This document shows positions 10,754-24,429 of a stretch of 34,756 bases of DNA, one piece after another. Source of the DNA: Alkalinema sp. FACHB-956 (lineage in GTDB: Bacteria > Cyanobacteriota > Cyanobacteriia > Leptolyngbyales > Leptolyngbyaceae); NCBI RefSeq assembly GCF_014697025.1, contig NZ_JACJRC010000044.1, forward strand, positions 1 through 34,756, in the 5' to 3' direction. A program made the translations under genes and the position numbers. Positions within the stretch are counted from its first letter, which is position 1. Each line of letters begins with the position of its first letter. Below the pieces are notes generated by a model. The model was not told the origin of the DNA. It saw only the letters and a list, made by a program, of their open reading frames with translations, and ran no database searches.

Positions 10754-13700
10754 TTACCAAGGACTCCCAATGAGGGTGAAGGCTGACCAGTAGTAGGGAT
10801 GGGATAGGGTGCGATCGCCTAAACTTTCCAGCTCGTTCGGTAACGCCGCTTTTCCACCCGACCATTGCAATTGGCCGTTCTGCAACTTCACCTGGCCCTT
10901 CAGCATTTGGATTTGGGCCTGCCGAATGGCCTCGGCTTTGATGGGCGACTGGCGCAATTGTTGATAAAACTCCGCCATTAACCCCGATGTCCCCTCATCA
11001 TTCACATTCCACAGGCTTGCCAGCGCCGATCGAGCCCCCGCCTGCACCGCTAACCCCGCAAAACCCAACTCCGCCTCGCGATCGCCCAGGGCCATGCGGC
11101 AAGCACTCAGCACTAACAAATCTAAGGGCGGATCGTTCCAATTCAGCTCCCGCAACTGATTCAGCCGGAGGCGTTGATCCTGAAGTTGAATGTAGGAATC
11201 CGTCAGATCCCCCGGCAAGAATTCGCCATGGGTGGACAGATGCACCAGTCCAAAGGGTTGACGCTGGCGTTGATTTTTCAGATTCGTCAAGGTGAAGTCT
11301 TGGTTTAATAAAATACTTCCCGGCCAGAGTCGGCGAATGTTGGTCAATTCCAATTGAACTGCTGGCAATGGGGCTTGGTCAGTGAACTGGGTGGCTCCCG
11401 CAGCCAGCACTTCCGCTTGCCCCAAATCCACGAGGCGCGAGTCAGTCAGACTGAGGCTCGGCATGAGGCCAATGCTGTAGTTTTCCACGAGGAACTGTTT
11501 GCCATCGTAGAGCGCTGCTAACGGAATAAACCGCAGCCCCGTATCTAGAACAAAGGCAATATTGCCAATCTGCCGATCGCGCAATTCCCGTTCGATCGGA
11601 CGAATCAGCCAGTCATACAGTTTTTTAGCGGATTTCAAATAACTGCGGGTATTGGTTTTGCTGGGGTCAGCCACTTCCGATCGGAATTGCTGGGCTAGGG
11701 CCACAACCTGGGTGCGATCGGCTTGGGGAATGCGCAGAACGTAGGGGGGCTCAGTGGGGGTCACCAACAGCAGTTCCAAGGACTCCTGCTCCTTGACCCG
11801 CAATTTGATATCCTTTTCCTGCCGTTCGATCGCGCCTTCTGTCGTGGGGACGAATCCCACATACAGCAATGCCGGTCGGATGCCAGTGACCTCAGATACC
11901 CGTTCTAGGGTTTTACGCGCCGCACCCAAAGAAATCACTCTAGGCAGATCCGGCAAATCTAAATAATCGGAAAATTCAAATGTGTGATCATTTTCCCAGT
12001 TATCAAACTGACTCCCGAGATCTAACAAATTATTATCGCTAGCCGGTGGCGTTTCATTCTCGTTAGGCGATTTTTGTTGAATTTCGGGGAAAGGCCGTAA
12101 GTTAACCGGCGCTAGTGGCGTAATAATCGGTTGATCGGGTGTAATGATGGTAATGGTGCTAGGCGCTGTCCCCTGAACAAAGGTGCCAGCAATCGATCGT
12201 GTGGGGTTTAAGCGGTTGGTGCCCCCCGTCGTAATCGCTGCGGCAGTTCCGCTAATACTGGCATCACCAATCGTGAATGGAACATTCGGCACTAATTGAT
12301 TGGTTCGGATAATGACAGAACCACCCCCACTCCCACCCGCAGTAGAAATTGTAGAGAGAACCCCATTTCGATCGGTAAAACTGCCACCCATCCGTAGGAA
12401 TCTCGCAGTGGTAATATCAACATTTCCACCAATGCCGCTTGTGCCTCCCTGGGCATTGATAAAACCAATTTCAACATCACCATTGGGATCAACCAAGACA
12501 TTGCCACCGTTACCAAGATAGGAATAACTAACGATTCCTTTAAGACGAATTTGGTTCTGGGCGATGACTTCAATATTCCCGCCTGCTTGGGTGCTACTAG
12601 CGCTACTGGGTAGAGCGGGGCTACTGGTGATTTGCAGAGGAGGGAGAACGGCGCTGCTGAGTACTAGTTTGGGGGCATCGATCGAGGCCGCTTGTAAGGT
12701 CAGTTTGCCGCCTGCGGTATCGAAGACAAGGCTATCGGGAACGGTGAGGGTTCCTGTGAGTTTGAGGGTCAAATCGCCGCCGCCGGTTAAAACCAGAGTT
12801 TTTGGGAAGGTCAGATCGCCAGCTTTACTAAGGCTAAAATTGCCGCCCCCCGTACTCAGGATGAAAGGCAGTACCAAGGTTGTTGGAGCCAGTTGATCAC
12901 CGATCGTCAGGCTGCTACCGGAGAGCAGAAATTCATCCGGCATGGTGAGGGTTCCGCCTGCATTCACAACCAGCTTGCCGTTTTTGCCCAGTTCTACGGT
13001 ACGATTGCCAATCACGATCGGTTCCTGAGTCACTGGATCGAGTTGAGTAGCTGCGCCCCCTACAGTCACGTTCTGAGCAGCCCACAGGTTAATATCGCCT
13101 GCTCGATCGGTTCCGCTAGCACTAATCACCCCCGTTTTCAGACTGCCTTTCTGGGCAATGATATCGATATTGGAGCCAACCTTAGCATTGCTAGAGCGAA
13201 CATCTTTGACATCAATATTTCCCTGTTGGCTCACCAAACGAATGGTGCTAGCAGAATCACCTGCATTGGGTACGATTGGCACAATCCCTGTCCCAGAATC
13301 TCCTGTTACATCCAAAATCACACTGCCGGATTGAATCATTTGTCCAGCTGAAATTTGAACATCTCCTGAACGGCTGAGCCCTCGAGTATAAATGCTACCA
13401 ATGCTCGCTGCTCCGGTAGTCGATAACGTTACTGCACCGCCCACCGGATTGGCTACGTCAGAAATAATGACGCCAGTCCGGATGCCACCATTGCCTGCAG
13501 TGAGACCAATGTTCCCACCTGTTTGAGACAACAGATTGTTAGTAGGAGGACCACCGTAAATAGCGAGATCGCCTGTGGTGATTCCCCCAGCATTCGCCGT
13601 AAGAGTAATGTCTCCCACACTAGCTCCATATTTGCGAATGTTTAAATATCCAGTACTGATGTTGCCAGATCGGGCAGTGAAATTAATGCTTCCGGCTGAT

Positions 13701-15352
13701 AAATTGTTAGGAAAAAGGCCGGGACTGGTTGTGATTGTACCTACACTAATGTTATTGGCTGTGATTATCAGGTTTCGACCTAGTGTATCAATAGAAAATC
13801 CTGTTCCATTAAAATTTCCCAATGCTTCAAACGTTACCGTAGAATTGGCAGGAGTAGTAAAGGTAATATTTTGATTGAGATTGATATCGCGGCTGGCTTG
13901 GAGAATTAAATTCCCTGTAATGGCTGCAATCTCATCAGCCTGAATGCTCAAATCGGTAGTTGTTCCAAACTGATCAAATAAAATACCATTGTCTAAGTTG
14001 ACGGGGGGGAGATAAGGGTTAAACCCAATGATATTAATATCCTGCGGATCAAGTAAAACCGTTCCCGCAGGCCCCTGACTGGCGCTGACATCCGCTTTCC
14101 CTAAAAAGCCGAGGTTTTGTTTGCCGGACACTTCAACAAAGCCGCCTTGAGTTACGCCTTTGGCAGTAATCTCGCCGTTAAACTGCGTAGCCCGATCGCT
14201 CCAAACAATCACCCGTCCACCGTCACCGGATTGCAACGCATCGGCTTGAATTTTAGAAGCTTGATCAATATAGGTTTGTTCTGCATTGGGAATCGTGCCT
14301 TTGCCTTGGTAGTCGCCCCCAATGCGAATTGTGCCTCCGCCAGCATTACCCGAAGCGTTGAGATTGGCATTGACGATCGCGACTTGGGTTCCCAAGTTCG
14401 TAATCGACCCACCCACGCTGGATGTACTGGACGGATTGGATACATCCTGGGTGCCAGAGACGATCGTCGTACCCGTTGTCGTTGGGATTTTCAAATTTGA
14501 TCCGGTGAGTTGTAACGTGCCATCGGCATTGACCGTAACTCCCGTTGCCGTTGGCAGATTGCCCCCCGTCAGCAGTTCCGGCAGAGACGTGGTGCGGAAA
14601 TTCTCTGGGGCGTCTATCCAGGGCTGGAGTTCCAAACTCAGTAACCCAGTCTCGGAATTCAACGTCGCAACGGTTTGCCCAGATACGGACGCGATCGTGA
14701 GTTGTCCCCCCGGTGCGGAGAGCGTCCCAAAGTTAAATACCGTCCCTGCCAGCAAGCTCAGATTTTGTCCCGTCGGAACTGCCAGATTGCCAAAATTCGC
14801 GATCGAACTCGGTTGCGGAGCCGTAAAAGCAAAGGTATTGGGCGTTCCCAACAGATTGCTGTAGTTGTTATTGCCGAGGACATTCAACCACTGATTGCCC
14901 AAGCCCACCCGATCGGCAGTCGTAGCGGTGAATGCAGCGGGAACATTCAGGGATGCATTACTGCCAAATAAAATTCCCGCTGGATTAATTAGGACGAGAT
15001 TAGGATTACCCCCGGTAATTTGAATCAATCCGTTAATGATTGAAGGATTACCACCATTCACGCTCCCCAGAATATTCTTCAACGCGGGATTGGCTAAAAA
15101 ATTAGCCGTTTGCCCCGTCTCCAGGCCAAACTGAGTAAACCGATGAAATAAATTGCTACCATCCTGGGAACGACTGCCCCCGGTAATCTCAAAGCGGTTC
15201 CCCTGCTGGTTGACGATCGTTCCTGTCCCGTCGGCTGCGGGCACGATCGGTTGTGCTTGCACCGAGGCCATTAGCCCGATCGCCCCTAGGGGTAAACTCA
15301 GCACAGACAAACTCAGTCGCGAACTCATTAACCGCTTTAATAATAGATTCAT
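10754..15352 (-). CDS. Exported TPS-domain (filamentous haemagglutinin N-terminal) protein with C-terminal CHAT protease domain
   Basis: This 1532-residue protein has a signal peptide (MNLLLKRLMSSRLSLSVLSL..., cleavage near VQAQP). A two-partner-secretion domain follows at about 40-270 (GSNLFHRFTQFGLETG, NPSIINGLIQITGG, LINPAGILFGSNASLNVP), then a long Gly/Ser/Thr-rich beta-helical stretch with degenerate repeats. The C-terminal CHAT caspase-like domain spans about 1150-1532, with catalytic LVHLSTHGEF (H1375) and LLVLSACRMALGD (C1418). TPS domains are normally exported through a TpsB/ShlB pore, which is not encoded here. The start overlaps the DUF928 stop as ATGA, so the genes are translationally coupled. 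This architecture is known in cyanobacteria; the target of the exported protease is unknown. Confidence 0.92.
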   Translation of the reverse strand: MNLLLKRLMSSRLSLSVLSLPLGAIGLMASVQAQPIVPAADGTGTIVNQQGNRFEITGGSRSQDGSNLFHRFTQFGLETGQTANFLANPALKNILGSVNGGNPSIINGLIQITGGNPNLVLINPAGILFGSNASLNVPAAFTATTADRVGLGNQWLNVLGNNNYSNLLGTPNTFAFTAPQPSSIANFGNLAVPTGQNLSLLAGTVFNFGTLSAPGGQLTIASVSGQTVATLNSETGLLSLELQPWIDAPENFRTTSLPELLTGGNLPTATGVTVNADGTLQLTGSNLKIPTTTGTTIVSGTQDVSNPSSTSSVGGSITNLGTQVAIVNANLNASGNAGGGTIRIGGDYQGKGTIPNAEQTYIDQASKIQADALQSGDGGRVIVWSDRATQFNGEITAKGVTQGGFVEVSGKQNLGFLGKADVSASQGPAGTVLLDPQDINIIGFNPYLPPVNLDNGILFDQFGTTTDLSIQADEIAAITGNLILQASRDINLNQNITFTTPANSTVTFEALGNFNGTGFSIDTLGRNLIITANNISVGTITTSPGLFPNNLSAGSINFTARSGNISTGYLNIRKYGASVGDITLTANAGGITTGDLAIYGGPPTNNLLSQTGGNIGLTAGNGGIRTGVIISDVANPVGGAVTLSTTGAASIGSIYTRGLSRSGDVQISAGQMIQSGSVILDVTGDSGTGIVPIVPNAGDSASTIRLVSQQGNIDVKDVRSSNAKVGSNIDIIAQKGSLKTGVISASGTDRAGDINLWAAQNVTVGGAATQLDPVTQEPIVIGNRTVELGKNGKLVVNAGGTLTMPDEFLLSGSSLTIGDQLAPTTLVLPFILSTGGGNFSLSKAGDLTFPKTLVLTGGGDLTLKLTGTLTVPDSLVFDTAGGKLTLQAASIDAPKLVLSSAVLPPLQITSSPALPSSASSTQAGGNIEVIAQNQIRLKGIVSYSYLGNGGNVLVDPNGDVEIGFINAQGGTSGIGGNVDITTARFLRMGGSFTDRNGVLSTISTAGGSGGGSVIIRTNQLVPNVPFTIGDASISGTAAAITTGGTNRLNPTRSIAGTFVQGTAPSTITIITPDQPIITPLAPVNLRPFPEIQQKSPNENETPPASDNNLLDLGSQFDNWENDHTFEFSDYLDLPDLPRVISLGAARKTLERVSEVTGIRPALLYVGFVPTTEGAIERQEKDIKLRVKEQESLELLLVTPTEPPYVLRIPQADRTQVVALAQQFRSEVADPSKTNTRSYLKSAKKLYDWLIRPIERELRDRQIGNIAFVLDTGLRFIPLAALYDGKQFLVENYSIGLMPSLSLTDSRLVDLGQAEVLAAGATQFTDQAPLPAVQLELTNIRRLWPGSILLNQDFTLTNLKNQRQRQPFGLVHLSTHGEFLPGDLTDSYIQLQDQRLRLNQLRELNWNDPPLDLLVLSACRMALGDREAELGFAGLAVQAGARSALASLWNVNDEGTSGLMAEFYQQLRQSPIKAEAIRQAQIQMLKGQVKLQNGQLQWSGGKAALPNELESLGDRTLSHPYYWSAFTLIGSPW

Positions 15353-16203
15353 GGCTTTTCTCTTAAGGGAACTTCACAACAGGTATTTAACGGCTGCGTG
15401 GCAACCTCGTCTAATCCGGCGGTTTTCAGGAGACTTTGCCATTCTTTTTCGATCGTGCCATCTTTAGGTTGCTGCAACCGTAGATTGGCCATAATGGTTA
15501 GGGCTTCATTCCAAATACCGGCTTGCATATAGCGTTTCGATCGTTCGATCGGTGGAGCTAATAAAATTCCTTGGAGCAATTTGGGTTCTGTTTTTAAACG
15601 AATCATTGAAATATCAACAAACTGATTAACGGAGGTATCTTTTTCATCACACCTGACAACAAATTTCCAATGGACGATTTGATTAAACGGTAGTGGTGCT
15701 TCCGTTTTGGGCAGTTGAATGCGCATCACTCCAGGCTGAGCTTGCTTGAGCGTCAAGATCGTGCGCTGGATGGTGAACTGATTATCTTCAGGATCGGGTT
15801 CCTCAATGCGTAATTCGGCGGGATGATTGGGGGTGAGGGCATAGGGCAGGTAAAACCAGAGGGTGGGATGGGCTTCGGTCGTAGATCCCACAAATAGCGG
15901 TGCTTCTTTCCCTTCCCGTAGCATGGGCACGAGGGCAGTCAGAGGTTTGTCCGATCGACAGCCTCCTCGGCTAGCGGCTCCCCGAGGTCGGTTGTTGTCT
16001 GCCCGCCGGGATTGTCCTGTGAGTAACCGCCGAAGCCGCTCGGAAATGGATTGTGCGGCACTGGGGGGAGCCTGAATACTGAAATTCAGTCCCGTGAAAA
16101 CCAGCGCCAAGCCGACGGCAAGGAGCTTACGATCAAGGAATTTACGATCGTAGATCACGTAATCTCGAAAGCATTGACGCCAGTGTTGGGGAAACTTCAT
16201 CAT
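15349..16203 (-). CDS. DUF928 exported protein
   Basis: This 284-residue protein has a membrane-targeting N-terminus (LLAVGLALVFTGLNFSIQA, signal cleavage near PPSAAQ). The DUF928 signature follows: RGAASRGGCRS, LTALVP, TEAHPTLWFYLPYAL and IVHWKFVVRCDE. It is probably a soluble or peripheral periplasmic protein. It is the middle gene of a leftward set, 68 bases after the TIR-CHASE2 gene and overlapping the TPS-CHAT start by four bases. DUF928 genes commonly accompany CHAT/TPS and CHASE2 genes in cyanobacteria (general knowledge, not checked here), so it probably works with the exported CHAT protein. Biochemical role unknown. Confidence 0.88.
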   Translation of the reverse strand: MMKFPQHWRQCFRDYVIYDRKFLDRKLLAVGLALVFTGLNFSIQAPPSAAQSISERLRRLLTGQSRRADNNRPRGAASRGGCRSDKPLTALVPMLREGKEAPLFVGSTTEAHPTLWFYLPYALTPNHPAELRIEEPDPEDNQFTIQRTILTLKQAQPGVMRIQLPKTEAPLPFNQIVHWKFVVRCDEKDTSVNQFVDISMIRLKTEPKLLQGILLAPPIERSKRYMQAGIWNEALTIMANLRLQQPKDGTIEKEWQSLLKTAGLDEVATQPLNTCCEVPLREKP

Positions 16204-16271
16204 ACGGGTAGATTGCCTATTGTCTGATAGATTGTCTAGTGTCTTAATAAATTGCCTAATAAATTAATTAC

Positions 16272-18194
16272 CTATTGTCTGGACTGCTGCTGACGAGCGG
16301 CCATTTTAACTGAAATGACTGCCGTTGTTACCATCATAAACGCCGGGGGGAGGAGCGGTACCCAGGTGGAACCCAGGCTAAACCACAAGCAGGCACTGCC
16401 CACCAATCCGCCCATCGCGATGCCGAGAAAGAGGCTCCGCCGCACTGGATCGAGCCACAGAACCACGATCGCGCCACCCACGCCCGCCCAGGCCCAAATC
16501 CACAGGATATCTAACCAGAGGGGCCAGACTTGCAGCAGGGGCCGATCGTTCAAGGCAGCACTCAGGAGTTGGCTGGTCATTTGGGCTTGCAACACCACTC
16601 CTACGATAGAACCGTAGGGGGTTTTAAAGTAGTCGTTGTTGGCCTCAGAACTGATACCGACTAAGACAATGCGATTGCGGACATCCTGTTCGGTGAGCTG
16701 GCGATTCAGCACGTCTTCTAGGGTGACTCGTTTAACAAAGTTGTTCACCCGTTCCTGGGCGGTTTTGCCGGGGCCGAGCCGATAGTTCAACAACAGGTAA
16801 TGTCCTTCGGAGTCGATGCTGCCCTGGTAGGCGTTACTAAACAGCCCCAGTCCCGGTAAATGGGTTTTCCCAAAGGAAATCGATCGACCGATGGCATCCG
16901 GTGCAATTTTCGCAAGACCTGTTCCTTGTACCCGATCGAGGTAATGCTGGGCCACTGCCCAACTGAAGGAGGCGATCGTGGGACAGGGCATTTCAGGCAG
17001 GGGTTTCCGTACCATCATCTGCTTACGCACAATTAAATCAACGTCATAGACAACGTCAGAAAATCCTAAGCGATTTTGGGGAAGATCCGGTGGTGGATTA
17101 ATGGCGCGATTGCTGTCAGGATCTCGTCCGTCTCCGTTGGGCAGTTTGCAAAGGCCAATGATGCGGTTGTCAGTCCGGAATCGCTGGGCGAGTTGTTTAA
17201 CTTGAGGGTCGATCGTGAAGTCGCGGTAGAGATCTAAGCCGATTAAGCGGGGCTGGTAGGGCAGCAGTGCGCTGAGGACGCGATTGAGGGAAACATCAGA
17301 GAGGGTGCCACGGGCGTTTTCGTTGCGTTGCAGTTGGGCTTTAATATCCGCTTCCGTGACTTCGATGATGAGAAAGCGATCGTCGGTGCCTTCCACGGGT
17401 TTGATTTGGGCCATGCGATCGAAGACCCACAGTTCCACGGGTTCCAGTAATCCGGTGACGCGAATTCCCCCGATCGCCAGGAGCATCGCCGCACTGGTGA
17501 CCAAAAGGGTAGGTAGGTTGGGGCGATAGCCAGGGGCTTGACGGCTGGTGGTGATGTATTGGACTTGCAGTTCCGTAGGGGCGGGGGCTTTAGTTGCACT
17601 TGTTTGCAGCCAGGTTTCCGCTTGAATGAGGTCTTTTCCACGCAAGAGAAAACTGGGTTCGCGGTGGTTGCGATCCCACTCCAGGGCTTTGATTTGCAGG
17701 CGGGTGTGTTGTTTGGCGTAGTCCAGATCGGTGTCGATCGCGGTGACTAGGGTTTGGAAGCCTTGCTCAAAGTTGTCCTGATCGCGCAAGAAAATCCAAT
17801 TGAGGGCACTGAGGGTGGGGTGGACTTGCTGCGGATCAACGTCACGGTAGATGACGGGAACGAGGCGTTTATTGTTTTGGATGGCGTGTTCGATTTCCCA
17901 ACCGCAGACTTCCGAAGTGACTGAATCAGGCGAGAGAATAAAGACGAAGGTATTGGCGGCTTCGATGCCCGATTGAATGGATTTCCACCACTGTTCGGTG
18001 GGTTGGATGTTTTGCCAATCGACCCAGAGATCGCGATCGCCTTGGCGCAGGGCGTCGTGTAATTTCTGCACGAAGGCTTTGTCACGACGGGAGTAGGAAA
18101 TAAAAACGTCGGGGGTGGAGCCGGGAGGCAGGTCGGGGGTGGAGCCAGGAGGCTGGATCGGTTTACTCGATCGGGCTTTAAAGCGAGGCAACAT
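16272..18194 (-). CDS. TIR-CHASE2 transmembrane receptor protein
   Basis: I start at ATG 18194 (MLPRFKARSS); a longer frame would need TTG 18251. The 640-residue protein has a cytosolic TIR domain at about 29-150 (DVFISYSRRDKAF, LWVDWQNI, FILSPDSVTSEVCGWEIEHA with the candidate catalytic Glu). A linker typical of cyanobacterial TIR receptors follows (HTRLQIKALEWDRN, LLRGKDLIQAETWL). Then come a membrane helix near 228-247, an extracytoplasmic CHASE2 domain about 250-530, and about three C-terminal helices (555-635). CHASE2 senses extracellular cues; TIR domains can cleave NAD or act as scaffolds. A duplicated PPGSTPD sequence precedes the TIR domain. First gene of the operon with DUF928 and TPS-CHAT. 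Confidence 0.92.
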   Translation of the reverse strand: MLPRFKARSSKPIQPPGSTPDLPPGSTPDVFISYSRRDKAFVQKLHDALRQGDRDLWVDWQNIQPTEQWWKSIQSGIEAANTFVFILSPDSVTSEVCGWEIEHAIQNNKRLVPVIYRDVDPQQVHPTLSALNWIFLRDQDNFEQGFQTLVTAIDTDLDYAKQHTRLQIKALEWDRNHREPSFLLRGKDLIQAETWLQTSATKAPAPTELQVQYITTSRQAPGYRPNLPTLLVTSAAMLLAIGGIRVTGLLEPVELWVFDRMAQIKPVEGTDDRFLIIEVTEADIKAQLQRNENARGTLSDVSLNRVLSALLPYQPRLIGLDLYRDFTIDPQVKQLAQRFRTDNRIIGLCKLPNGDGRDPDSNRAINPPPDLPQNRLGFSDVVYDVDLIVRKQMMVRKPLPEMPCPTIASFSWAVAQHYLDRVQGTGLAKIAPDAIGRSISFGKTHLPGLGLFSNAYQGSIDSEGHYLLLNYRLGPGKTAQERVNNFVKRVTLEDVLNRQLTEQDVRNRIVLVGISSEANNDYFKTPYGSIVGVVLQAQMTSQLLSAALNDRPLLQVWPLWLDILWIWAWAGVGGAIVVLWLDPVRRSLFLGIAMGGLVGSACLWFSLGSTWVPLLPPAFMMVTTAVISVKMAARQQQSRQ

Positions 18195-18561
18195 AGAGTA
18201 CAGAATAGAGCACAGGTGATCTGGGTGAAAATGGCTGGAAAACGGATTCAAAACGGGGGATAACTGGACAATTAAGAATGCTATCAGTTAATAGAATCGG
18301 AGCATTCTAAGGAACATGCAGGTCACAACAGGTCACATTTTTTAGCGTAGTTGCCCGGTTTGAATTTTGCAACGATACAACGGCTGAAAATCAGGTCTGT
18401 GTGAGTAGCATTTGATACATACTTAATGCTGGGTGATGCAGAGGTGCGAGGTTAAAAAAGATGCCTCAGGATTCTCCCAAGGCAATTAAAAAGAAATACG
18501 ATCGTGATTAAAGAAGTGTAGAGATTAGTCAATGAAACTTGAATTGTGTGGGCAACACTAA
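18195..18561. promoter_or_regulatory. Intergenic region with inverted and direct repeats upstream of TIR-CHASE2
   Basis: No gene is seen here. An 8-bp perfect inverted repeat (AGAATGCT at 18275-18282, AGCATTCT at 18301-18308) lies 80-115 bases upstream of the TIR-CHASE2 start. Just beyond it are two direct 10-bp units, CAGGTCACAA (18319-18328) and CAGGTCACAT (18329-18338). They are exactly one helical turn apart and read TGTGACCTG on the coding strand. They could be an activator site, but no known factor can be assigned. Confidence 0.35.
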
Positions 18562-20848: not shown

Positions 20849-23239
20849 ATGATACGAGAAGATCTATTAGCCATCATTGAAGAAGCAAGGCAGAGTGGCC
20901 GGAAAAGTCTTGATTTGTCGTGGAAGCAAATTCAAGAATTACCTGATTCAATTGGTCAGCTAACTAACCTCACGCAATTAAATCTTTACAACAATCAACT
21001 GACTGAATTACCTGATTCGATTGGTCAGCTAACTAACCTCACGCAATTAAATCTTTACAACAATCAACTGACTGAATTACCTGATTCGATTGGTCAGCTA
21101 ACTAACCTCACGCAATTAAATCTTTACAACAATCAACTGACTGAATTACCTGATTCGATTGGTCAGCTAACTAACCTCACGCAATTAAATCTTTACAACA
21201 ATCAACTGACTGAATTACCTGATTCGATTGGCAAATTAACCAACATTAAAACACTTGATCTTCATGACAACAAATTGGTTGGCTTACCTGATTCAATTGC
21301 TCAACTAAGCAACCTTGCAATACTTGATATCAGTTTAAATGAGTTAAAGAATTTACCTGATTCAATTGGTCAATTACATGGTTTGGTAACACTTTATCTC
21401 AGCAACAATCAGCTGAAAAATATCCCTGAATCAATCGGTAGATTAACCAACCTTACAGCACTTTATATCAATAGTAATAAACTAGAGACTCTTCCTCGAT
21501 TAGTTGGCAAATTAATCAAATTGCAAACATTCAATCTTGAGGGCAATTTCTTGAATACAATCCCTCCTGAGGTTATTAAACAAGGAGGAATTGCGGTTCG
21601 TGACTATTATCGACAGCACATAGAAGCAACCACAGATTTTATTTATGAAGCTAAGCTGATTATCATTGGTGAAGGTGGATCGGGTAAAACCAGCTTGGCA
21701 AATAAGCTAATCAACTCTCAATACGAGCTTAAACTCGAAGGCGGCAGAAATCCTGAACAATCGACAGAAGGAATTGCTGTTATGTACTTAGATTTTAATC
21801 ATTATAGTGGTCAAAAATTCCGTATCAATATTTGGGACTTTGGTGGCCAAGAAATCTACCACGCTACCCACCAATTCTTTCTTACCAAACGATCCCTCTA
21901 TCTCCTCGTTGCTGATACTCGACAAGAAAATACTGACTTTAACTATTGGTTGGAAATTGTTGAACTCCTCAGCGAAGCCAGTCCCACTCTGATCATCAAA
22001 AACGAAAAACAAGATCGTCCCTGTCAAGTGAATGAGAACCAACTGCGGGGCCGGTTTCCAAACCTAGAAAAAATTCTGGCAACCAATCTCGCTACTAATC
22101 GCGGCCTCCCCGAAATTTGTGCTGCTATCAAACACCACATCAGCCAACTTCCCCACATCGGCACCCCATTGCCCAAAACCTGGGTCAACGTCCGCCAAGC
22201 CCTTGAAACCGACACCCGCAACTACATCACCCAACAGGAATTCCTCACCCTCTGCGACACCCACGGCTTCAAACGCCACGAAGACAAACTCCAACTCAGC
22301 GGCTACCTCCACGACCTCGGCGTCTGCCTCCACTTCCAAGACGACGACCTCCTACAACGCTACGTCATCCTCAAACCTGAATGGGGCACCACTGCCGTCT
22401 ACAAAGTCCTCGACACCGCTAAAGTCCGACAAAACCTCGGTTGCTTCACCAGCGAAGATCTCAAACTCATCTGGGCCGATGAACAATACGCCGACATGCG
22501 CCCAGAACTCCTGCAACTGATGAAAAACTTCAAGCTCTGCTACGAAATCCCCCACCGCCCCAAAACCTACATCGCCCCCCAACTCCTCTCCCCAAACCAA
22601 CCCGATTATCCCTGGGACGACACCGATAACCTCATCCTGCGCTACCACTACGAATTCATGCCCAAAGGGATGCTCACCCGCTTCATCGTTGAAATGCATC
22701 GGCTCATCGACAGCGATCTCGTTTGGAAAGACGGCGTCATCCTCCAATCCGCCAACACCCGCGCCGAAGTCATCGAAGCCCGTTACCGCAACGAAATCCG
22801 CATCCGTATCTCCGGCTATCCCAAAAAATCCCTCCTAGAACGCATCCGCCACGAGTTCGACAAAATCCACCAATCCTATGGAGAACGTCTCCGCTTCCAA
22901 GAATTTATTCCCTGCAACTGCACTACCTGCAAAGGCTCCCAAACTCCGCATTTTTATGCACTTAATCGCTTGGAAGAACGACTCAAAAACAACCGATATG
23001 AGATCGAATGTGATATCAGCTATCAAATGGTATATGTGGAAGGTTTAATTGATGATGTTTTACGTGTAGAGAGCAATCAATCGAGTATTGTCGATGGTAG
23101 AGATCCAGTAGAAGATATACAAGTATACGAAAAGTTTCCTATTTTTTCTATGGACGTAATCAAAGCTTATCTAAATGAGGTTGATGAATTAAATTCCTCG
23201 ACACAAAATAATATGGATATAGATGATCAAGTCGTTTAA
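20849..23239 (+). CDS. LRR-Roc-COR (Roco family) GTPase
   Basis: This 796-residue protein has about nine 23-residue leucine-rich repeats (about 20-240; unit ELPDSIGQLTNLTQLNLYNN). A Roc GTPase follows with P-loop GEGGSGKTSL (274 onward), switch II WDFGGQEIYHATHQFF (about 329-344) and a degenerate G4 (NEKQD rather than NKxD). A COR dimerisation region (about 430-720) includes the CNCTTC cysteine cluster seen in bacterial COR proteins. An acidic Asn/Asp-rich tail ends the protein. GAGG precedes the ATG. The protein is cytosolic; Roco proteins couple ligand sensing by LRRs to GTP-dependent dimerisation. The next gene, 47 bases on, encodes a deoxyribosyltransferase-like/TIR protein, a likely effector. 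Base composition is mosaic: LRR/Roc AT-rich, COR very C-rich, tail AT-rich. Confidence 0.93.
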   Translation: MIREDLLAIIEEARQSGRKSLDLSWKQIQELPDSIGQLTNLTQLNLYNNQLTELPDSIGQLTNLTQLNLYNNQLTELPDSIGQLTNLTQLNLYNNQLTELPDSIGQLTNLTQLNLYNNQLTELPDSIGKLTNIKTLDLHDNKLVGLPDSIAQLSNLAILDISLNELKNLPDSIGQLHGLVTLYLSNNQLKNIPESIGRLTNLTALYINSNKLETLPRLVGKLIKLQTFNLEGNFLNTIPPEVIKQGGIAVRDYYRQHIEATTDFIYEAKLIIIGEGGSGKTSLANKLINSQYELKLEGGRNPEQSTEGIAVMYLDFNHYSGQKFRINIWDFGGQEIYHATHQFFLTKRSLYLLVADTRQENTDFNYWLEIVELLSEASPTLIIKNEKQDRPCQVNENQLRGRFPNLEKILATNLATNRGLPEICAAIKHHISQLPHIGTPLPKTWVNVRQALETDTRNYITQQEFLTLCDTHGFKRHEDKLQLSGYLHDLGVCLHFQDDDLLQRYVILKPEWGTTAVYKVLDTAKVRQNLGCFTSEDLKLIWADEQYADMRPELLQLMKNFKLCYEIPHRPKTYIAPQLLSPNQPDYPWDDTDNLILRYHYEFMPKGMLTRFIVEMHRLIDSDLVWKDGVILQSANTRAEVIEARYRNEIRIRISGYPKKSLLERIRHEFDKIHQSYGERLRFQEFIPCNCTTCKGSQTPHFYALNRLEERLKNNRYEIECDISYQMVYVEGLIDDVLRVESNQSSIVDGRDPVEDIQVYEKFPIFSMDVIKAYLNEVDELNSSTQNNMDIDDQVV
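20936..21211 (+). repeat. Four tandem 69-bp LRR units, nearly identical
   Basis: Units start at 20936, 21005, 21074 and 21143. They are identical except for one base in the first copy (GATTCA versus GATTCG). Each encodes one 23-residue leucine-rich repeat. A fifth unit at 21212 matches for its first 20 bases or so and then diverges. Identity at synonymous positions indicates very recent amplification or ongoing homogenisation. Confidence 0.97.
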
Positions 23240-23286: not shown

Positions 23287-24429
23287 ATGTCGAATAACCA
23301 TAAGCTAGATATCATGAAAAATCCAAAAAATATATACATTTTGTATCCTCAAGAATGCAAAGATTTTTTTGAGTATGCAGTTGTACCTGATCTTCAAAAA
23401 TCACTAAATTTAAATTGTAGCTTACAAGGCTATAAGCATATAGACCGAGAAATTATTCAAATCATGATTAACAAAATCAAAAATGCTAGTATTCTAATAT
23501 TTTGCTATTTTGGAAAAATTGAACTAGAGCATGCTTATAAGCTGGGTCTTGCGCATGCTTTTAATAGCAGAGTAGTATTGATAAACTTTGCTTGTACAAA
23601 AAATGATTTGAACTTTCCTAGCTTTATAAATTATGATTTCCTTATTCTTGTTAGAAAATCTATCAGTAGCGAAGATATCAAACGGTTGAATGAGGATATC
23701 CAAAATGTAATTATCTCATGTTTATCTGTAGATACAATTGGTTTTCTATACAAAAAAGCTGTCAATATTTGCAAATCACTCGAGCAGAGATATTTACGTA
23801 AAATACCAGTAGTCGATCAATCGATATTTGCAAGTCGATTGAAAAAAGAGGAGATTCGCATGTGTTTAAATGAGTATGATAAATCTTCGAAAATATTGCT
23901 TGTCAAGGTGATTGAAGATATTCATATACTAAGTATTTTGCAGATCAATGAACAATTCTTTTCTAATCCTACTCCTAGTTTTAATTTAGGTGATATGAAA
24001 ATTTTCGTTAGCTACAGCCATGAAGACGCCGAATGGCTGAAAAAACTGCAAATCCACCTCAAACCCCTCACCCGCAAAGGCACGATCGATCTTTGGGACG
24101 ACACCCGCATCCAAACTGGCGACGACTGGCAACAGGCAATTGAAACCGCCCTCGCCAACGCCCAAATCGCCATCCTCCTCGTCAGCCCCAACTTCATCGC
24201 CTCCGACTTCATCGCCGACAACGAACTGCCCCCCCTCCTCGATGCCGCCCAAGCCAACGGCCTCAAAATCTTCTGGATTCCCATCAGCTACAGCAGCCAC
24301 ACCGAAATGGACTTCAACAAATACCAAGCCGCCCACAACCCCAAACAACCCCTTGCCAGCCTCCCCCCCGTCGAACAAGACCGCGTCCTCGTCAAAATCT
24401 GCCAAGACCTCAAACGCCTCGCCACCTAA
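23287..24429 (+). CDS. Deoxyribosyltransferase-like domain fused to TIR domain
   Basis: Residues about 11-140 of this 380-residue protein look like a Rossmannoid nucleoside 2-deoxyribosyltransferase/TIR-like domain: IYILYPQECKDFF, IKNASILIFCYFG, then ELEHAYKLGLAHA and RVVLINF, paralleling the 'aD..v.dl...N.ev.yElG.A.a' pattern. Residues 140-235 are helical. A clear TIR domain starts at 237 (MKIFVSYSHEDAEWLKKL, IDLWDDTRIQTGDDW, ILLVSPNFIASDFIADNELP with the candidate catalytic Glu). Both domains could attack nucleotide N-glycosidic bonds; TIR enzymes hydrolyse NAD. It follows the Roco gene by 47 bases. An RBS-like sequence lies directly before the TIR methionine, where composition jumps from AT-rich to C-rich. 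The N-terminal assignment is tentative; the TIR is firm. Confidence 0.85.
   Translation: MSNNHKLDIMKNPKNIYILYPQECKDFFEYAVVPDLQKSLNLNCSLQGYKHIDREIIQIMINKIKNASILIFCYFGKIELEHAYKLGLAHAFNSRVVLINFACTKNDLNFPSFINYDFLILVRKSISSEDIKRLNEDIQNVIISCLSVDTIGFLYKKAVNICKSLEQRYLRKIPVVDQSIFASRLKKEEIRMCLNEYDKSSKILLVKVIEDIHILSILQINEQFFSNPTPSFNLGDMKIFVSYSHEDAEWLKKLQIHLKPLTRKGTIDLWDDTRIQTGDDWQQAIETALANAQIAILLVSPNFIASDFIADNELPPLLDAAQANGLKIFWIPISYSSHTEMDFNKYQAAHNPKQPLASLPPVEQDRVLVKICQDLKRLAT
23988..23997 (+). promoter_or_regulatory. Possible internal ribosome binding site and start for a free TIR domain
   Basis: AGGTGAT, complementary to the 16S rRNA tail, immediately precedes the ATG at 23995 that encodes the first residue of the TIR domain (MKIFVSYS). 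Internal initiation would release a 144-residue TIR protein. The spacing is short, so this is only a candidate. Confidence 0.35.

Follow-up and report, generated by a model that had tools for sequence, protein, structure and literature searches.

The 34,756-nucleotide contig NZ_JACJRC010000044.1 of the cyanobacterium Alkalinema sp. FACHB-956 (contig C44 of a 6.16-Mb genome in 59 contigs), the whole of which is the window analyzed here, carries three adjoining genes. They encode a membrane receptor that joins a TIR domain to a CHASE2 sensor, a DUF928 protein, and a two-partner secretion (TPS) protein ending in a CHAT protease domain (Table 1). From this gene order, the 68-base gap and the ATGA overlap, an earlier note on this DNA had proposed that the trio acts jointly, and it had suggested a signal that could pass from a proteolytic event outside the cell through CHASE2 to TIR. 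The layout holds to the base, and joint function is supported by a conservation survey, with DUF928 near 33 of 37 and CHAT near 22 of 31 TIR-CHASE2 genes. The gene set is thus real and conserved, and it belongs to something the note did not describe, a family of membrane TIR receptors most of which carry three TIR domains. Many cyanobacteria have such a receptor together with apparently exported partners and a caspase-like protease, in what looks like an outside-to-inside alarm receptor. An in-frame TTG at 18251, upstream of the receptor ATG, is a possible alternative start; promoter- and terminator-like sites in the region (10 and 11, versus 7.6 and 9.5 in shuffled sequences) show no clear excess.

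Table 1 Features of the TIR-CHASE2, DUF928 and TPS-CHAT gene set in the window
Feature	Position	Strand	Observations
TIR-CHASE2 receptor gene	16272-18194	-	Pfam TIR_2 6e-29, CHASE2 2e-52; ATG at 18194
Gap between TIR-CHASE2 stop and DUF928 ATG	16204-16271	-	68 bases
DUF928 gene	15349-16203	-	Pfam DUF928 2e-42; ATG at 16203; signal-like N-terminus
Overlap of DUF928 stop and CHAT start	15349-15352	-	ATGA
TPS-CHAT gene	10754-15352	-	Pfam TPS 4e-35, CHAT 4e-70

The receptor consists of an N-terminal TIR domain, a helical linker, one transmembrane helix, the CHASE2 domain (179 bits; Pfam cut-off, 26.3) and three further transmembrane helices. Hydrophobic segments at residues 245-263, 579-597, 606-624 and 630-648 correspond to helices in the predicted model (mean pLDDT 77.3), and one helix before and three after CHASE2 is the arrangement expected of CHASE2 transmembrane receptors. 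Because of this predicted layout, the TIR domain should lie in the cytosol and CHASE2 beyond the inner membrane. Foldseek matched the model to the TIR domains of SARM1, SPARTA and AbTir; nearly all rows were TIR chains, and the fold search therefore says nothing about CHASE2. At the level of sequence and fold, the window TIR has both the fold and the catalytic-type glutamate of NADase TIR domains. This glutamate, intact within a Ser-x-x-Cys-x-x-Glu motif, is what we take to be the NADase residue of TIR enzymes.

The receptor itself served as the query against 386 genomes of the phylum, and an alignment of its linker and CHASE2 domain as the query against 97 relatives and a named genome collection; DUF928 and CHAT played no part in these searches. 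As a single query, the window protein found no relatives in the named collection, and the linker and CHASE2 alignment then recovered them. Loci were taken from rows covering the linker or TIR (four from the 386-genome search and 14 from that of the 97 relatives) plus four rows of 650-703-residue frames, and were annotated with domain profiles built from the Pfam-checked domains of this genome and from relatives, with a Pfam check of L073 and L074. From 54 annotated loci we dropped those that did not carry both TIR and CHASE2 (L077, L078, L105, L152 and L155) and duplicates (L073, L102, L075, L141 and L142), leaving 44 TIR-CHASE2 genes. At most three candidates per genome were scored in the 386-genome search and at most 16 in the search of 97 relatives, and 44 is accordingly a lower bound. 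Retained in this set were L079, L080, L107 and L143, in which the contig ends within 320 bases after the receptor, L103 (two frames) and L097 (a broken frame). Among the 30 named-genome loci recovered with the receptor family, 29 are cyanobacterial; the other, L108 (Anaerolineales), has a TIR match only. The filamentous genera Nostoc, Anabaena, Leptolyngbya, Symploca and Coleofasciculus are among the named carriers.

The partners recur around these receptors. Downstream sequence of 1.5 kb or more was available for 37 TIR-CHASE2 genes; DUF928 lies within 6 kb of 33 of them, overlapping or at most 200 bases away in 29, and it adjoins TIR-CHASE2 in three taxonomic families (f1, f7 and f23). Where at least 3.5 kb was available on both sides (31 genes), we found DUF928 at 27, CHAT at 22, TPS at 23 and TpsB at 13, with CHAT, TPS and TpsB counted within 8 kb of the receptor; 27 had any of these last three, 19 had both DUF928 and CHAT, and 30 had at least one partner. 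The exact order of the window on one strand occurs in five genomes of a single family (the window, L140, L153, L154 and L156), and the usual order in Nostoc, Anabaena and related loci is TpsA, TpsB, CHAT, TIR-CHASE2, DUF928. Where CHAT shares the strand of the receptor, it lies upstream in 12 cases and downstream in six; on the opposite strand, it lies downstream in three and upstream in one. L096 and L106 have a TPR gene where DUF928 would be, beside TPS-CHAT; L139 lacks DUF928 but carries TPS-CHAT immediately ahead of TIR-CHASE2; and L147 has no partner. Independent occurrence of the three genes had been named beforehand as evidence against joint function. TIR-CHASE2 is rarely found without DUF928 (4 of 37), but it has no CHAT nearby in 9 of 31 loci, and there are also DUF928 and CHAT genes away from any TIR-CHASE2, as a rule next to CHASE2 proteins whose outputs differ.

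Most of the receptors carry tandem TIR domains: three in 30 of the 44 proteins, one in nine, five in four and two in one, the last from a broken frame. The motif glutamate is kept in all nine single TIRs, in 34 of 35 outermost TIRs and in 24 of 35 membrane-proximal TIRs, and every one of the 44 proteins has at least one glutamate-bearing TIR. An inactive glutamate across homologues, the other result named beforehand as speaking against the proposal, is not what the family presents. The membrane-proximal domains without it (10 Gln and 1 Asp) do mean that some TIRs may be scaffolds. Since TIR active sites are known to form between neighboring TIR domains, an array on one chain may come preassembled, with the inner TIR serving in part as structure. 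One could go further and regard the TIR region altogether as a scaffold that recruits other TIR proteins rather than as an enzyme. The tandem arrays, the loss of the membrane-proximal glutamate and the extra TIR genes beside the sets in L106 (at 17342, +), L153 (9716 and 11055, +) and L156 (11879, +), one of them encoding 1409 residues with four TIR matches, would suit such a role. Retention of the glutamate in single and outermost TIRs argues the other way, and we regard a purely recruiting TIR as unlikely. Separately, the stretch G000:C16:21186-21947 in L078 is 50% identical to the window TIR and linker in a match that crosses two TAG codons, and a 480-residue frame with a TIR is still open there.

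The TPS-CHAT protein has a signal-like N-terminus, a TPS secretion domain (122 bits), a long middle region and a C-terminal CHAT domain (237 bits). The first two are the sequence features of a TpsA protein, with the signal called, here and below, by a simple rule; the histidine and cysteine expected of a CHAT protease, as residues, stand at exactly the positions first assigned to them, His1375 and Cys1418. Among the 39 CHAT domains that occur outside CHASE2 fusions in the annotated loci, loci of other CHASE2 proteins included, 37 retain both residues, and the other two have no residues at these sites. A search of the CHAT domain against PDB sequences gave no match up to E = 1. Export of the CHAT protein, as proposed before, fits the signal-like N-termini of TPS-CHAT proteins (8 of 8), CHAT proteins without TPS (15 of 17) and TPS proteins (14 of 16). 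The two CHAT proteins without such a start are a 232-residue fragment (L094) and a frame that overlaps the end of a TPS frame (L083).

An adjoining TpsB pore gene, one mark of two-partner secretion, is absent from the window, where the contig has no TpsB (ShlB) match, as had been noted; the same does not hold for homologous loci, 13 of 31 of which have TpsB within 8 kb. Because five TpsB matches above the Pfam cut-off lie elsewhere in the genome, one of them directly after the TPS-CHAT gene of a CHAT-CHASE2/DUF928/TPS-CHAT locus on contig C25, the pore for the window protein could be supplied in trans. A further link of CHAT to two-partner secretion comes from L155:4462-8349 (-), a 1295-residue CHAT protein with POTRA and TPR domains beside DUF928 and a CHAT-CHASE2 gene. 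In the TPS protein CdiA, the C-terminus stays periplasmic until the surface part binds its receptor (PMC9086364); if TPS-CHAT behaves like CdiA, its CHAT domain would be located with DUF928 and CHASE2. Ten Nostoc-type loci, picked because they contain the parts, gave these mean pairwise identities: TIR array, 0.83; CHAT domain, 0.82; CHASE2, 0.79; TpsB, 0.79; remainder of the CHAT protein, 0.73; DUF928, 0.68; and TpsA, 0.53 (8 loci). The highest variation thus falls in TpsA, the likely surface protein, which is only consistent with a role in recognition because exported proteins are often more variable.

The DUF928 protein is modeled by AlphaFold (mean pLDDT 76.5) as a beta sandwich, predicted to be Ig-like, followed by C-terminal helices, and 34 of 37 DUF928 proteins have signal-like N-termini. 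The best solved match to this fold is the C-terminal domain of MtxA (Foldseek E = 1.5e-4), with a Z score of 9.2 over 150 residues spanning model residues 87-271, compared with 7.5 over about 96 residues in the next rows; identity is 11%, and the match is by itself no evidence of function. A DUF928 profile gave two weak matches among PDB sequences (E = 0.021 and 0.11). MtxA is described as having a signal peptide and both Ig-like and TPR parts, and the gene that comes after mtxA resembles adenylate cyclase and CHASE2 (PMC4439547). The CHASE2 neighbor common to mtxA and DUF928 played no part in the fold search. We propose that DUF928 is a periplasmic partner of CHASE2. It is also a candidate general partner of cyanobacterial CHASE2 receptors, because 38 of 47 DUF928 matches in six genomes adjoin CHASE2 and the window fold resembles MtxA; one published paper describes a Nostoc cluster that holds WD40, CHASE2 and DUF928 genes.

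The same company is kept well beyond TIR. The Alkalinema genome has 18 CHASE2, 12 DUF928 and 38 CHAT matches, and its 18 CHASE2 proteins are joined to cyclase (5), HisKA (4), GGDEF (1), protein kinase (1), N-terminal CHAT (6) and, in the window, TIR (1). DUF928 lies within 4 kb of a CHASE2 gene, always on the same strand, in 10 of 12 cases (0.33 expected). The corresponding figure across the six genomes, 38 of 47, compares with about 0.9 expected by random placement, and 24 of 47 DUF928 matches have a strong CHAT no more than 6 kb away, where about 1.8 would be expected. To count as strong, a CHAT match had to reach 87 bits in this genome (31 of 38 did) or 114 bits in the other five (76 of 133 did). 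In G389, fragments of a single DUF928 gene and of a single CHASE2 gene were joined, and the 47 DUF928 matches include one that falls below the Pfam cut-off. Among 14 named control genomes, CHASE2 occurred in two, CHAT in one and DUF928 in none. One might suppose that CHASE2 and DUF928 are a receptor pair for some ordinary envelope signal and that the CHAT and TPS surface genes are independent of it despite their frequent proximity. DUF928 is indeed closer to the receptor and more constant than CHAT (33 of 37 versus 22 of 31), and CHAT is common in this genome. That account, which we regard as possible but doubtful, does not sit easily with the excess of strong CHAT genes near DUF928, with L139, or with a gene order that shifts while the company persists.

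A tree of CHASE2 domains places TIR-CHASE2 within this company. A 43-tip clade, made up of 42 TIR proteins and the CHAT-CHASE2 protein L155, is nested among CHAT-CHASE2 proteins, with support of 1.0 in FastTree and, in a second tree, UFBoot values of 98 before and 92 after re-rooting. The first tree excludes the short CHASE2 domains of L107, L037 and L103, the last of which is in two pieces; as its CHAT types, the second used those of this genome, L155 and 14 others drawn at random. The CHAT-CHASE2 proteins L039 and L040 fall outside the group that holds the TIR clade. L155 adjoins DUF928 and a CHAT gene and looks like a swap of TIR for CHAT; its receptor frame extends to the end of the contig, so that part of the N-terminus may be missing. 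TIR-CHASE2 is thus one output variant of a wider CHASE2-DUF928-CHAT scheme. At one other locus of this scheme, genes for a sigma-70 region 4 protein and a DUF1822 protein precede CHAT-CHASE2/DUF928/CHAT (L031:3373-6074, +).

Our main argument for the direction of signaling follows from this variation: because the outside part is constant and the inside part varies, DUF928 with CHAT and TPS would be the input and TIR the output. Flow in the opposite direction, with the receptor governing release of an exported CHAT that acts as an effector against neighbors or surface proteins, would draw on the periplasmic hold of the CdiA C-terminus until contact (PMC9086364) and on the kept CHAT dyad. That the cytosolic domain can be a cyclase, a kinase, GGDEF, CHAT or TIR next to an unchanging DUF928 fits an output role instead, and we consider such inside-out flow improbable. 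The outside-to-inside route is, in our judgment, the best reading. We hold with roughly even confidence that the set forms an alarm receptor spanning the membrane in the cyanobacterial envelope, in which exported TPS/CHAT and DUF928 provide the input to the CHASE2 sensor and this sensor in turn controls TIR.

The steps could run as follows. First, a TpsB pore encoded elsewhere would take the TPS part of the CHAT protein to or through the outer membrane, leaving the CHAT domain and DUF928 as the input side, in the periplasm or at the surface. Second, a surface event would change or release CHAT, whose target could then be either DUF928 or the CHASE2 sensor. Anchored in the inner membrane by its 1 + 3 helices, CHASE2 would relay the change inwards and gather the TIR domains. 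Finally, the gathered TIRs could act on NAD, leading to cell suicide or a nucleotide signal. The analysis establishes the gene set and its conservation, a predicted topology, the retention of catalytic-type residues and a cytosolic output that changes beside a lasting DUF928 side; we infer the direction of the signal, the action of CHAT on DUF928 or CHASE2, the clustering of TIR and the cleavage of NAD. More speculatively, the layout could be Toll-like, with receptors bearing one, three or five tandem TIRs switched on by the exported caspase-like protease through DUF928 as an Ig-like adaptor, resulting in NAD-based death or alarm upon attack at the surface; this elaboration is tentative, and we would not expect it to hold in full.

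Several observations weigh against the outside-to-inside reading. CHAT is not near 9 of the 31 loci, and DUF928 is not near 4 of the 31; 11 of 35 membrane-proximal TIRs lack the glutamate; the resemblance of DUF928 to MtxA comes at very low identity; and the apparent swap in L155 involves a possibly truncated frame. CHAT matches are also numerous in this genome, although their nearness to DUF928 exceeds random placement. In addition, the CHASE2 and DUF928 trees of this genome, compared over 10 pairs, are not significantly correlated (r = 0.24, with 2979 of 20000 permutations as high).

More broadly, the gene set offers an experimentally accessible path linking the cell surface to TIR, and a single genome is seen to equip related envelope sensors with TIR, CHAT, cyclase or kinase outputs. 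If TIR is gated in this way, these proteins would be membrane-bound bacterial TIR receptors that take their input from outside the cytoplasm, mostly with several TIRs per chain. The arrangement also bears on what CHASE2 domains sense and on the role of DUF928, which is little treated in the literature searched. In that literature, which lacks most subscription papers, we found no report of TIR-CHASE2, nor of a CHAT domain with two-partner secretion in cyanobacteria or with hemagglutinin and secretion.

The trio does not correspond to Thoeris: PADLOC found no ThsA match among the three genes and two neighbors, the TIR matched ThsB and other TIR models only partially, and DUF928 and TPS-CHAT had no match. 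Elsewhere in the window, a gene for an LRR-Roc-COR protein (20849-23239, +) is followed after 47 bases by one for a protein with a C-terminal TIR (23287-24429, +) that matches ThsB and other TIR models of PADLOC, possibly a second TIR signaling pair near the trio.

Known systems share individual parts of this arrangement. The NADase TIRs of SPARTA (TIR-APAZ), SARM1 and AbTir have the same fold and a catalytic-type glutamate but no CHASE2 anchor. A Thiohalocapsa protein combines CHAT and TIR, with no CHASE in the portion of the source available (PMC10907252). In TRADD-N systems, predicted to act in conflict, CHASE2 is among the interchangeable C-terminal domains of a variable second gene, whereas TIR-CHASE2, DUF928 and exported CHAT do not appear in the accessible text (PMC8195603). 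CdiA, another TPS protein, is displayed on the surface, with a C-terminus that stays periplasmic until contact; from the part of its description available, that C-terminus is a delivered toxin, in contrast to the CHAT domain of the window protein (PMC9086364).

Closer parallels are found among CHASE2 receptors. The metacaspase-CHASE2 protein of Trichodesmium erythraeum has an N-terminal cell-death-type domain in the cytosol, CHASE2 outside and one transmembrane helix before and three after it; it differs in having a metacaspase for TIR, and the available parts of the two sources mention no DUF928, CHAT or TPS partner (PMC3501461, PMC2853523). In magnetotactic bacteria, mtxA, encoding an exported or envelope partner, adjoins a CHASE2-cyclase gene (PMC4439547), and FecR genes similarly provide an envelope partner beside CHASE2 genes (PMC5192318, PMC9239204). 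The output of these pairs is a cyclase or histidine kinase, with no mention of TIR or CHAT in the accessible portions of the three papers. The CHASE2 cyclases of Sinorhizobium respond to a plant protein via outer-membrane NsrA, so that an outer-membrane protein relays a protein signal to CHASE2 receptors, a precedent for envelope input to CHASE2; as far as the available text goes, the output there is a cyclase and NsrA is a beta-barrel rather than a TPS or CHAT protein (PMC13001267). The nearest relatives on the tree are CHAT-CHASE2 sensors; the CHAT-CHASE2/DUF928/CHAT loci of the same genome share the receptor layout and the partners and differ in having a divergent CHAT in place of TIR.

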